DNA of 64,000 nt, from positions 124,001-188,000 of the forward strand of contig NZ_PQIG01000078.1 of the NCBI RefSeq assembly GCF_012349115.1, given 5' to 3'. Both the position numbers and the translations under genes were made by a program. The DNA is from Rhizobium ruizarguesonis (GTDB taxonomy: Bacteria > Pseudomonadota > Alphaproteobacteria > Rhizobiales > Rhizobiaceae). The notes below the pieces were generated by a model. That model was given only the letters and a program-made list of their open reading frames with translations, was not told the DNA's origin and ran no database searches. Every line of letters begins with the position of its first letter. Position 1 is the stretch's first letter. Shown here piece after piece: positions 8,244 to 12,092 of the stretch.

Positions 8244-8268
8244 GGAACTCAGGCAAATTCCGGGCGTT
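8244..8268 (+). promoter_or_regulatory. EcfG (RpoE2-type) promoter of PLD gene
   Basis: GGAAC at 8244-8248, exactly 16 bases, then CGTT at 8265-8268. This is a perfect match to the alphaproteobacterial general-stress sigma factor consensus. It sits 28 bp upstream of the PLD start codon, which supports that start. Confidence 0.75.
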
Positions 8269-8296: not shown

Positions 8297-9808
8297 ATGA
8301 CGACATTCGAAACCATCTTCAATAACCCGAGCTTGCCCCAGACAAAATCACAACGGCCGGGCGGCCGCCAGAAACAGGAGGGCAGCGCCTTGTCCCCGGA
8401 AGGGAGCGCTGCGAAGGCGGCCTTCCTGATCAACGGCAACAGCTATTTCGCAGAGCTGGCGCGCGCGTTGCGACAGGCGCGGCGCACCATCTGGATCGTC
8501 GGGTGGGATTTCAATCCGAACATCCGGTTGGAACCCGATAAGTCCGACAAAACGCTGGCCGACCTGTTGCATGCCCTGGCAGCGGCAAATCCGAAGCTCG
8601 AAATACGCATCCTCATCTGGGCGCTCGGTCCCGTTTATTCTGGCAAGTCCCTGCAGCCGCTGCGGAAGAAAAACTTTCCCAGAAATGCGCGGATCGATCT
8701 ACGCTTCGAACTTCAGCCGACATTGCGCGGCTGCCACCATCAGAAACTCGTCTGTATCGACGATGCCGTCTCCTTCATCGGCGGCATAGATCTGACGTCG
8801 CGCCGGTGGGACACCTGGCTCCACCGCGCCAAGGATAAGCTACGGCGCGACCCCGAGGGCGTTTCCTACGATCCGCTGCACGACGTTCAGGCAATGGTCA
8901 CCGGCGATGCTGCCAGGTTGATCGGCGATATCGCCAGGCGGCGCTGGGAAAACGCCACCGGCGAAAGCCACCTGTCGTTGGCCGAAAACGTCCCCTTCGC
9001 CTGGCCGGACGATCTCGCAGTTCCCCTGAAGGAGATCGCGGTCAGCTTCGCGCTGACGGAGCCCTCGACCGCACTTCGCCCCGGCATCAGCGACGGCATC
9101 GCCATGACATTAGACATTATCGCCCGGGCGCGGCGGCAGCTTTACATCGAGGCGCAATATCTTGCCTCCTTCCGCGTCGCCGACGCCATTGCCGCGCGGC
9201 TGCAGGAGGAGGACGGCCCCGAAGTGGTCATCATCTGCACGCGCAGCTCTCACGGGCTGATCGAAAGGATTGTCATGGGCGGCAATCGCGACCGGGTCAT
9301 CCGCCGCCTGAAACGCGCCGATCGTGCGGACCGCCTGCGCGTCTACTATGCTGTCGTGCCCGGGCCAGTCACGCCCGGAGAGAACGGCGAGGTGGAGGTG
9401 CTCGTCCATTCCAAACTGATGATTGCCGATGACGAACTGGTCCGAATCGGCTCGTCCAACCTCAACAATCGCTCGGAAGGGCTGGATTGCGAATGTGACA
9501 TGCTTGTCGAGGCCGGTAATAACGAGCATCGCCGCGCGATCGTGGATCTGCGCAATCGCCTGCTTTCGGAATATCTCGGAACCACCCCGGAAAACTTTGC
9601 CGCAGCCTTTATGCAAAGCGGCTCGTTGATCGAGACAGTCGACGCGCTCAATGACGGGCCTCGGGGTTTACGGGAATTCACCGTCGAGCTGCCGGGCAGC
9701 ATTTCGCCGATTTTAGGCACCGCCCTCTTCGATCCGGTTCGACCCTTCGCGCCCCTAGACCGACTGGGCCTCGGCGCGCTCGTCCGCCTCCTCATTCGCC
9801 CCGCGTGA
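8297..9808 (+). CDS. Phospholipase D family protein, cardiolipin synthase B-like
   Basis: The 503-residue protein has two HKD motifs: HHQKLVCIDDAVSFIGG (near residue 153) and HSKLMIADDELVRIGSSN (near residue 373), the paired catalytic sites of the PLD superfamily. Members of this type transfer phosphatidyl groups (ClsB-like cardiolipin synthase) or hydrolyse phospholipids at the membrane. Neighbours encode YbhN-like and YbhP-like proteins, the same trio that surrounds clsB (ybhO) in E. coli, which favours a lipid synthase role. A perfect EcfG promoter precedes it, so stress induction is likely. The last 54 bp overlap the convergent ybhN-like gene. Confidence 0.85.
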   Translation: MTTFETIFNNPSLPQTKSQRPGGRQKQEGSALSPEGSAAKAAFLINGNSYFAELARALRQARRTIWIVGWDFNPNIRLEPDKSDKTLADLLHALAAANPKLEIRILIWALGPVYSGKSLQPLRKKNFPRNARIDLRFELQPTLRGCHHQKLVCIDDAVSFIGGIDLTSRRWDTWLHRAKDKLRRDPEGVSYDPLHDVQAMVTGDAARLIGDIARRRWENATGESHLSLAENVPFAWPDDLAVPLKEIAVSFALTEPSTALRPGISDGIAMTLDIIARARRQLYIEAQYLASFRVADAIAARLQEEDGPEVVIICTRSSHGLIERIVMGGNRDRVIRRLKRADRADRLRVYYAVVPGPVTPGENGEVEVLVHSKLMIADDELVRIGSSNLNNRSEGLDCECDMLVEAGNNEHRRAIVDLRNRLLSEYLGTTPENFAAAFMQSGSLIETVDALNDGPRGLREFTVELPGSISPILGTALFDPVRPFAPLDRLGLGALVRLLIRPA

Positions 9809-10717
9809 CGTCCGTCGGAAAACGACCTCGCTGATGACGAGAAGCGTCGTGCCGAGCGCCAGCGGAATGAAGAAATAGGCGCAGCGAAACGCAATCAGCG
9901 CGCCGATCGACGCCTCCTTCGGCACGACATAGGAGACCGTCGCCTCAAGCACGCCGAGACCGCCCGGAACATGGGTTGCGAGGATCGCTGAATTGGCAAG
10001 CACGTACGCCGTCACCGACCTGAAGAAGGCAACGTCGCCGAAGGCCGAAAGCATCTGATGCAGGCAGGCGGCGACGAGCATGAAATTGATCGTCCCGACC
10101 GCAACCTGTGCGACCGCGATCGAAAATCGCGGTAGCTGAAACGACCAGCGCCACAGCCGCAACGTGCCGCGGATGAAAAACGCCAGGCCCGCATAGACCC
10201 CCGGCACGACCAGCGCCAGCAAACCGAAGATGCGCACACTTGCCGGGTCGATGCGCAGCAGGCGCCCGGCATCGCCGGGATTGACGATCATGGCAAGACC
10301 GCCAAGTGTGATCAGCCCAAGCCCCACCGTGACACCACAAAAGAGGATGATCTTCGCCACGTCCTCCGCCGTCAGCCCCCAGCGCGAATAGAAACGATAG
10401 CGAAAGGCGCCGCTGCTCAGCCCGGCAAAGCCGATATTGTGGCCGAGCGAAAGGCTGATGAAGGACGCCAGTGCAATCCTGGAATAGGGCAAGGATTTGC
10501 CGAGCGAACGGATCGCCAGGACATCGAAGCAGCTCAGGCACAGATAGGACCCCGTCGCAAAGAGAAGTGCCATGCAAAAGGTCGACAAAGGTATGCTGCG
10601 AACCGATTGGACGATCTGATCGAGGCTGTATTGTTGGAAGATCCGATAGAGGAGAAAGACAGCAAGACAAAGGGCAGCAACGAGCAGTCCATTCCATATC
10701 ATGCTTTTCAAGCTCAT
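9755..10717 (-). CDS. YbhN-like (UPF0104 / LPG synthetase TM) membrane protein
   Basis: This 320-residue integral membrane protein has about eight spans. It carries family features such as GHNIGFAGLSSGAFRYRFYS (near residue 92) and HVPGGLGVLEATVSYVVP (near residue 245). It belongs to pfam03706 (lysylphosphatidylglycerol synthetase transmembrane-like / UPF0104), but no catalytic GNAT domain is attached. E. coli YbhN is the closest named relative and is of unclear function. A minus-strand EcfG promoter (GGAAC 10785-10781, CGTT 10764-10761) lies just upstream. The 3' end overlaps the PLD gene by 54 bp in antisense orientation. Confidence 0.8.
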   Translation of the reverse strand: MSLKSMIWNGLLVAALCLAVFLLYRIFQQYSLDQIVQSVRSIPLSTFCMALLFATGSYLCLSCFDVLAIRSLGKSLPYSRIALASFISLSLGHNIGFAGLSSGAFRYRFYSRWGLTAEDVAKIILFCGVTVGLGLITLGGLAMIVNPGDAGRLLRIDPASVRIFGLLALVVPGVYAGLAFFIRGTLRLWRWSFQLPRFSIAVAQVAVGTINFMLVAACLHQMLSAFGDVAFFRSVTAYVLANSAILATHVPGGLGVLEATVSYVVPKEASIGALIAFRCAYFFIPLALGTTLLVISEVVFRRTSRGANEEADERAEAQSV

Positions 10718-10758
10718 CGATTGTCCTCAGGAGTGCGAGCGCGATGGTTCGATCATCG

Positions 10759-10783
10759 GGAACGATCAAACTAGTTTTGTGTT
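10759..10783 (+). promoter_or_regulatory. EcfG-type promoter, rightward (YbhP-like gene)
   Basis: GGAAC at 10759-10763, 16 bases, TGTT at 10780-10783. Only the first -10 base differs from CGTT. Its -10 element overlaps the -35 element of the leftward promoter described next. It would start transcription about 45 bp before the ATG at 10837. Confidence 0.6.
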
Positions 10784-10785
10784 CC
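10761..10785 (-). promoter_or_regulatory. EcfG-type promoter, leftward (YbhN-like gene)
   Basis: Read on the minus strand, GGAAC (10785-10781), 16 bases, CGTT (10764-10761) is a perfect consensus match. It is embedded in the rightward promoter, so the two share DNA almost end to end. Only one polymerase could occupy the site at a time. Confidence 0.65.
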
Positions 10786-10836
10786 CCGGAGAACACATTC
10801 TATGTTCTCCCGGGGGGAACGAGTTCAGCGGGGGCC

Positions 10837-11565
10837 ATGCCGGATAAATCAATCAAACTCCTGACCTATAACGTGCACAGTTGTATCGGCGGCGACCGGA
10901 AGCTCGATCCCGGCCGCATCGCGTCTGTCATCGCTGAGGCTGAGGCTGATATCGTCGCTCTTCAGGAGGTCGACGTCCTCAGGCGCAGGACTGGCGGCGT
11001 TGACCAGGCCCATGCGATCGCCTCGCTTTTGAAGATGCAGGCTCATTTCCATCCAGCGCTGTCGATCGCCGAGGAGCAGTATGGCGATGCGATCATCACT
11101 TCGCTGCCGACAGGCGCGGTCAAGGCCGGACCATTGCCATCCATCGGCGAACAGCGCGGCGCCATTTCCGTCGAAATACTGGTCGGCGACAGAAAACTGC
11201 TGGTCGTCAACACTCATCTCGGCCTCCGAGGCCGCGAGCGCATCCGGCAGATGACGACATTGCTGAACCCGGGCTGGCTGCGCGGCACGGCGGATGAACC
11301 TCTTCCAACCATCCTCTGCGGCGATTTCAACGCCATTCCGTCATCGGCGACTTACCGACTTGCCGCGCGGTCATTGAAGGACGCCCAGCTCGCAAGCGGC
11401 GCCGCGCCTAGAGCGACCTTTCCCTCGCGCTACCCGCTGATGCGCCTCGACCACATCTTCGTCACTGACGATCTCATCGTCAAACAGGCGGCGGTCCTGG
11501 AAAACCGCCTGACAAGGATTGCCTCGGACCACCTGCCTCTGCTCGCGGAAATCGGCTTCGCCTGA
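10837..11565 (+). CDS. Endonuclease/exonuclease/phosphatase family protein, YbhP-like
   Basis: The 242-residue protein has all EEP motifs in order: LTYNVHSC, ALQEVD, VVNTHLGLRG, LCGDFNAIP, RLDHIFV and SDHLPL. These are the metal and phosphate ligands of the Mg-dependent phosphoesterase fold. E. coli YbhP is encoded beside clsB and ybhN, and the same association here suggests action on a lipid or phosphodiester head group rather than on DNA. That is inference. The ATG at 10837 is used because the motif-bearing fold begins at once. The upstream frame is open but covers the promoter. A rightward EcfG promoter precedes it. Confidence 0.8.
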   Translation: MPDKSIKLLTYNVHSCIGGDRKLDPGRIASVIAEAEADIVALQEVDVLRRRTGGVDQAHAIASLLKMQAHFHPALSIAEEQYGDAIITSLPTGAVKAGPLPSIGEQRGAISVEILVGDRKLLVVNTHLGLRGRERIRQMTTLLNPGWLRGTADEPLPTILCGDFNAIPSSATYRLAARSLKDAQLASGAAPRATFPSRYPLMRLDHIFVTDDLIVKQAAVLENRLTRIASDHLPLLAEIGFA

Positions 11566-11585
11566 TCCGTCATCGACGACGACTT

Positions 11586-12092
11586 TCACCGGGCGAGCTT
11601 CCGGTTCATCGCCGCCGCCACCAACGGTAGCGCCGTCGTCGCCACGGCTCCCAGAGGCAAACGCATGATGCCCCTCGTGACGACGAAGGTCGCCGCCATT
11701 GCGCCTGCCAGCTTGAGCCAGGGCTGATTGCCAAGCTGCGCATGGGCGCTCGCATCGGCCCATCGGACGTTCTCCGTAACGACGGTCGCGGCCTGATGTT
11801 GGATCACGTGAAGGCGAGCGCGGAGGTTTTCGAGTTCTTCTCTCAGTTCTCGCAACCGGCCTTCCAGGGCATGACCATCGGAGACCAGGAGCGGTTCCTC
11901 GACGGTGCCTCCGACCGAAGCATCACCTCCGAGTGTCGCAATATACGCCCGATATTCAGCATCGCTGGCAAAACCCTCACGTCTGATAAGATCAGGATTG
12001 ATGCTCGCCTCTTCGAAGGAGGCCGGCGCGGTTTCTACACCGTCGCGCATATCCTTGTTTGTGCCGGTATCCCCGAGTTCGTCCTTGAACAT
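11586..12092 (-). CDS. Hypothetical protein, coiled coil plus hydrophobic C-terminus
   Basis: No family was recognised with confidence. The 168-residue protein starts MFKDELGDTGTNKDM at an ATG with GGAG ten bases upstream. It has a charged N-terminal half, a heptad-like coiled coil (LRELREELENLRARLHVIQ, near residue 85), and a C-terminal hydrophobic stretch from WLKLAGAMAATFVV to AAAMNRKLAR. This layout recalls the YqjD/ElaB and DUF3618 groups of small membrane-anchored stress proteins. It sits tail to tail with the YbhP-like gene, 20 bp away. Confidence 0.6.
   Translation of the reverse strand: MFKDELGDTGTNKDMRDGVETAPASFEEASINPDLIRREGFASDAEYRAYIATLGGDASVGGTVEEPLLVSDGHALEGRLRELREELENLRARLHVIQHQAATVVTENVRWADASAHAQLGNQPWLKLAGAMAATFVVTRGIMRLPLGAVATTALPLVAAAMNRKLAR

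Follow-up and report, generated by a model that had tools for sequence, protein, structure and literature searches.

A palindromic EcfG-type promoter block between divergent ybhN-like and ybhP-like genes of Rhizobium, predicted to act in both directions

Introduction

Bidirectional promoters are a recognised class in E. coli, on Salmonella plasmids and in other prokaryotes, as described in the sections used here of the work of Warman, Grainger and colleagues (PMC12825309, PMC10268837). According to the same sections of PMC12825309, the sigma-70 members of this class have a symmetric -10 element in common, the polymerases exclude each other, and noise is lower under competition. In this class the symmetric part is the -10 element, the two starts lie most often 18 bp apart, and the competition of opposing polymerases shows at high activity.

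With respect to promoter motifs, the locus reported here resembles the EcfG, RpoE2 and RpoE4 promoters of Rhizobium etli, Sinorhizobium meliloti, Sphingomonas and Sphingopyxis in its -35 boxes, its spacing and its leftward -10 box, and by analogy in the distance to the transcription start (parts of PMC3892343, PMC6180224, PMC6599016, PMC7083833). The EcfG boxes of R. etli are given as GGAAC-N16-CGTT in the part of PMC3892343 used here, and spacers of 16 and 17 nt both fall within the EcfG motifs printed there and in PMC6599016. A possible case of an overlapping divergent pair is SMa0139/SMa_sRNA_10 of S. meliloti, whose promoters, as printed in Table 1 of PMC6180224, have 36 nt of DNA in common, read from opposite strands, in an RpoE6-responsive region of pSymA. 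However, the SMa_sRNA_10 promoter matches neither RpoE6 nor other ECF sigma factors in that source, and the pair belongs to a different sigma group. In the open-licence PMC literature we found no description of an EcfG promoter with the shared divergent form described below. A search by words for the ybhN-like and ybhP-like genes flanking it gave no relevant hit in the main texts on published regulons, that of R. etli included.

The block at this locus has in common with the sigma-70 bidirectional class of PMC12825309 a pseudo-symmetric sequence and, as predictions, divergent RNAs and no joint binding of two polymerases. Unlike in that class, the whole ECF-type site is symmetric, the -35 box of one promoter lies on the -10 box of the other, and the predicted starts are approximately 40 bp apart; this -35-on-10 geometry takes the place of the shared -10 element by which the sigma-70 type is defined in the part of PMC12825309 used here. 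The symmetry of the sequence is present and conserved, and engagement of polymerase in both directions is predicted from it. Hence, the block would work like a bidirectional promoter, but with another geometry and another sigma class.

Results

The window analysed here, i.e. the whole stretch of 64,000 nucleotides, comes from a genome of 7.7 Mb; among plasmid records, the nearest matches to its ybhP-like gene are those of Rhizobium leguminosarum and R. ruizarguesonis. Three of its genes form a cluster of the ybhP/O/N type, which we take to correspond to ybhPON of E. coli, and the gene names ybhN and ybhP are used on the same assumption. The ybhN-like gene on the minus strand (9755-10717; LPG_synthase_TM, PF03706) is the predicted leftward target and the ybhP-like gene on the plus strand (10837-11565; Exo_endo_phos, PF03372) the predicted rightward target of the block between them. 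The third member, a PLD-like gene on the plus strand (8297-9808; PF13091/PF00614), points towards the ybhN-like gene from the far side, and the convergent 3' ends of these two genes overlap by 54 nt (9755-9808), which is also the case in R. etli p42f and R. johnstonii pRL12.

The block itself, GGAACGATCAAACTAGTTTTGTGTTCC, occupies the 27 bp from 10759 to 10785, has the form GGAACGA-N15-GTTCC and carries EcfG-type promoter elements on both strands. The rightward promoter consists of the -35 box GGAAC (10759-10763, plus strand) and, after a spacer of 16 nt, the -10 box TGTT (10780-10783), which agrees with the EcfG class in its GGAAC, its spacer of 16-17 nt and its GTT-type -10. On the minus strand, the -35 box GGAAC (10781-10785) is followed, again after 16 nt, by the consensus -10 box CGTT (10761-10764), so that a GGAAC-N16/17-CGTT promoter stands upstream of the ybhN-like gene, whose ATG begins 44 nt past the GTT. 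The AAC of the rightward -35 box doubles as the reverse complement of the GTT in the leftward -10 box. The head-to-head arrangement of GGAAC-N16-TGTT and GGAAC-N16-CGTT, as proposed in the initial annotation, is thus confirmed by reading the sequence.

A scan of positions 10600-10950 of the window gave no sigma-70-like promoter, and no Rfam match to a leader RNA element was found in 9700-11600. An inverted repeat in the ybhP leader at 10784-10814 (CCCCGGAGAACA / TGTTCTCCCGGG) has similar counterparts in just some of the close relatives; it is overlapped by a terminator-like match (10778-10797; one found against 0.3 expected). The RNA fold of 10790-10845 was no better than that of shuffled sequences (z 0.19); therefore, the inverted repeat is not counted in the finding.

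The genome encodes NepR (54.2 bits) and, adjacent to it, an ECF-type sigma factor with matches to sigma-70 regions 2 and 4 and to PhyR_sigma2, which we regard as EcfG because of its place next to NepR. The definition of the EcfG (ECF15) class includes an EcfG-dependent transcript start 7-9 nt past the -10 box. For SMa0187 and SMb20522, two RpoE2 promoters of S. meliloti, the start printed in Table 1 of PMC6180224 lies 9 nt past the GTT, and by analogy transcription of the ybhP-like gene is predicted to start at 10792 (plus strand) and that of the ybhN-like gene at 10752 (minus strand). The outermost in-frame ybhP ATG is found 9 or 10 nt past the GTT in 40 of the 103 loci that carry the block (see below), which together with a start at 9 nt leads to the prediction of a leaderless ybhP mRNA at these 40 loci. 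The same is predicted for S. meliloti 1021, where an ATG begins at pSymB 100515 and the predicted start is 100516 (minus strand), with the opposite start predicted at 100557 (plus strand); the part of PMC3616915 used here reports 171 mapped leaderless starts in S. meliloti. No leaderless mRNA is predicted for the window strain, since its ybhP ATG lies 54 nt past the GTT. A start site upstream of SMb20094 was reported on overproduction of the foreign sigma factor ECF02 (part of PMC10880074); it is not used as evidence here.

Of 148 genomes of the genus, 101 have a ybhP-like gene, with 102 places in total, and the upstream DNA was read at all of these; together with two further loci from a sister genus, 104 loci were compared. 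The initial annotation had made its proposal depend on conservation of both element pairs in close relatives, and such conservation was indeed found: GGAACGA-N15/16-GTTCC is kept in 103 of the 104 loci (101/102 in the genus, 2/2 in the sister genus), with a promoter spacing of N16 in 77 and of N17 in 26 of them. In the sole exception (L067), the PLD gene lies directly upstream and no ybhN was found alongside. The conserved bases include those that serve a single direction, namely GG at 10759-10760, used in the rightward direction alone, and G at 10764 with CC at 10784-10785, used in the leftward direction alone. A per-column table of 62 columns, from which rows that were too short (7/77 with N16, 1/26 with N17) were omitted, shows the first seven and the last five bases of the block to be invariant in all remaining 70 N16 and 25 N17 rows; apart from these, no column is without variation except that of the eighth block base in the N17 rows.

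Changes were counted on a tree of the ybhN protein with 99 tips, for which a locus had to carry the block and contribute 150 or more aligned residues. Not a single change was inferred in the 12 motif columns of either spacing class, compared with 102 changes in the spacer of the N16 rows, 52 in that of the N17 rows and as many as 26 in a single column of the flanks. According to parsimony on the same tree, the spacing switched between N16 and N17 at least five times.

Matches to ybhP were also obtained in 83 Sinorhizobium plasmid records, some of them distant paralogues. All four records that were read (S. meliloti Rm41, S. meliloti 1021, S. medicae and S. terangae) have the divergent gene pair and the block with N17 spacing, and Rhizobium sp. 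T1470 has both with N16. The presence in Rhizobium and Sinorhizobium suggests that the block was probably in use before the two genera split. The ybhP-like match is split in two in CP050565.1 and in CP050552.1, which suggests that both records contain a frameshift. Outside the family, the two-strand block was present in none of the 24 loci with ybhP homologues (44-54% identity) and a one-strand match in four; ybhN lies downstream in the same direction in 10 of these loci and was not found in the stretch examined in the other 14.

Loci without ybhN beside ybhP give a mixed picture. According to the ybhP and PLD trees, ybhN was lost from this place at least twice, in independent lineages. At one locus (L153, genome G111) the block was lost together with ybhN. 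In contrast, the sister loci L154 (G081) and L158 (G048), from the same genomes as L068 and L072, kept the whole block including the leftward-only bases, and no ybhN match was found in their 4-kb stretches. At 4-fold sites, L154 and L158 differ in 54 of 111 positions of ybhP (0.49) and in 81 of 191 of PLD (0.42), and by a hand estimate the chance that both loci retained the four leftward-only bases in the absence of selection is approximately 0.08. At another locus (L165, G096), the best ybhN match spans only residues 232-317, and ybhN may be interrupted there.

Counts of the motifs as such stay at chance level. The window contains five matches to GGAAC-N15-17-BGTT against 3.29 +/- 1.90 expected, and at least five occurred in 25 of 100 shuffles. 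In the whole 7.7 Mb genome, GGAAC-N17/18-GTTCC was found at 13 places compared with 20 for a reversed control pattern, i.e. such palindromes are without enrichment in this genome. Hence, window and genome counts were dropped as support for the site, which stands far above chance owing to its place and its conservation. Ten of the 12 other palindrome places lie inside an open reading frame of at least 120 aa, and since this is likewise true for the present site, the reading-frame check does not discriminate among them. A further GGAAC-N18-GTTCC site (G000:C101:56048-56075, L149 1501-1528) recurs in several species; it is situated behind what appears by eye to be the 3' end of a response regulator gene and near a minus-strand open reading frame, and could possibly combine an EcfG promoter with a partner that acts in antisense.

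Conservation would not indicate two promoters if the extra bases of the palindrome were an ordinary feature of EcfG promoters, and therefore one-way promoters were compared. A matched control is the neighbouring PLD gene, for which the motif scan gave a one-way consensus promoter GGAAC-N16-CGTT at 8244-8268 (plus strand). Such a CGTT-type promoter precedes PLD in 22 of 28 loci scanned, the window included; the six loci where none was found comprise the four Sinorhizobium records and two more. CC after the -10 box, as in the block, occurs in none of these 22 promoters and GA after GGAAC in one. Among the seven RpoE2-dependent promoters of S. meliloti printed in Table 1 of PMC6180224, CC follows CGTT in none (0/7) and GA follows GGAAC in none of the five that have GGAAC.

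A genome-wide version of this comparison used GGAAC-N16/17-CGTT and, as wrong-spacing control, N20/21 in 40 genomes. CC followed CGTT in 7.7% (389/5064) of the matches at EcfG spacing and in 9.7% (343/3551) at wrong spacing, which gives no hint that CC is preferred at EcfG promoters. The EcfG motif was thus more frequent than its wrong-spacing control (5064 vs 3551), but less frequent than the reversed pattern at the same spacing (5645), and the reversed pattern itself rose to 9395 at wrong spacing, probably due to codon phase. Since codon phase is not the same at the two spacings, the surplus per genome (37.8 for the motif, 1.15 for the motif with CC) is no count of real promoters. The surplus of the EcfG motif across genomes is thus not secure and the CC test is weak, so that we rely on the PLD and the printed RpoE2 promoters. 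DGTT boxes, counted in the same 40 genomes, number 8565 at EcfG spacing against 6654 at wrong spacing (33/40), with the same doubt about codon phase. On the promoters relied on, the extra bases of the palindrome look special to the two-way site, and all three cluster genes appear to be EcfG targets in Rhizobium.

The two directions are not equal in their -10 boxes. The leftward box is TCGTT in all 103 block loci, whereas the rightward box is NGTT and departs from the class consensus in its first base, which is T in the window and among the 99 tips T in 66, G in 24, A in 9 and C in none. In the part of PMC7083833 used here, EcfG forms of Sphingopyxis granuli transcribed less in vitro when CGTT was replaced by TGTT or CATT, and more when either of these was replaced by CGTT. 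Nevertheless, the same source reports 14 different -10 boxes, among them TGTT and GGTT, at promoters of the general stress response, and the effect of the -10 box can be overridden by further features of a promoter, such that some off-consensus promoters were stronger than consensus ones. A first-base C in the EcfG -10 box is therefore a frequent preference and no strict requirement, and by analogy both directions are probably functional with ybhN favoured. The expectation of the initial annotation that expression would be balanced overall is accordingly not supported; together with the Sphingopyxis data, the contrast of TCGTT and NGTT makes a bias towards ybhN the better prediction.

Discussion

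Taken together, the block is very likely a real promoter common to rhizobia and not a coincidence, to judge from its bases and their conservation. We read it as a single two-way promoter of the general stress sigma factor EcfG (RpoE2/RpoE4 type), whose two orientations would exclude each other, and give this reading a probability of roughly 0.8. The EcfG consensus is close to its own reverse complement (GGAAC versus GTTCC), and hence one palindrome of 27-28 bp can hold two promoters, each of which would use the -35 box of the opposite promoter as its -10 box. Under stress, EcfG-RNA polymerase would bind in one of the two orientations, and each binding would yield either a ybhN-like mRNA to the left or a ybhP-like mRNA to the right. 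Both polymerase complexes should be unable to occupy the block together; such exclusion per binding event is expected from steric reasoning and, by analogy, from the sigma-70 work in the part of PMC12825309 used here. The choice of orientation would be biased by the -10 boxes, with the leftward one at consensus (TCGTT) and the rightward one at NGTT. From the interpretation put forward initially, the two head-to-head EcfG-type elements in one conserved 27-bp block are thus retained and the balanced output is given up. Several observations speak against the two-way reading: the rightward -10 box is never at consensus, this class of palindrome is not enriched in the genome, the surplus of the EcfG motif in the 40 genomes is not secure, six of the 28 PLD loci gave no EcfG promoter, and the R. 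etli texts searched gave no relevant hit for these genes.

One alternative is a single real promoter, most likely the leftward consensus one serving the ybhN-like gene, with the other direction as an accident of a near-palindromic motif. The consensus state of the leftward -10 box alone and the frequency with which single GGAAC-N-GTT matches arise by chance fit such an explanation. But an accident would not be expected to keep the rightward-only GG together with the leftward-only CC and G in 103 of 104 loci, and CC after the -10 box and GA after the -35 box are rare at one-way EcfG promoters. Moreover, the greater number of DGTT boxes at EcfG than at wrong spacing, subject to the codon-phase doubt, argues against this explanation. 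We consider a one-promoter explanation to be distinctly unlikely.

A palindrome with dyad symmetry and strong conservation, which moreover persists at two loci without ybhN, could also be the operator of a dimeric transcription factor and no sigma site at all. Its half-sites are, however, identical to EcfG boxes, and the one-way EcfG promoter of PLD next to it does without a palindrome. Furthermore, the spacing between the half-sites shifted by one base at least five times with the half-sites unchanged, which fits the spacing tolerance of a sigma factor better than a fixed dimer. An operator is hence very improbable. Chance matches in a GC-rich intergenic region, as the window and genome counts at chance level might suggest, have a negligible probability and are refuted for the loci read by the tree columns, where 12 motif bases kept in 103 of 104 loci show no inferred change while flanks and spacer vary freely.

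The retention of the whole block in L154 and L158 is a weak but real point against the two-way promoter that we prefer. Either the loss of ybhN was recent enough in these genomes, or the leftward site does something else as well, as a decoy or a source of antisense RNA; where ybhN is lost, it may thus limit ybhP as a decoy or antisense promoter. For the intact pair, a self-competing stress promoter can be imagined, whose two overlapping EcfG sites would be maintained because their competition fixes the ybhN:ybhP ratio and damps noise at any level of EcfG, with the bias set by the conserved difference between TCGTT and NGTT. We put this forward as a tentative idea that is rather doubtful at present.

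With regard to the biology of rhizobia, the EcfG-type promoters found at all three genes suggest that the general stress regulon includes the whole ybhP/ybhO/ybhN-type cluster. A near-palindromic ECF consensus would represent a second, structurally different route to bidirectionality, in which exclusion is predicted to be hard-wired. Since the block is carried by R. etli CFN42 and S. meliloti 1021, both tractable in the laboratory, it would offer a clean test case for how polymerases compete, how a ratio of products is set and how noise behaves under a stress sigma factor.
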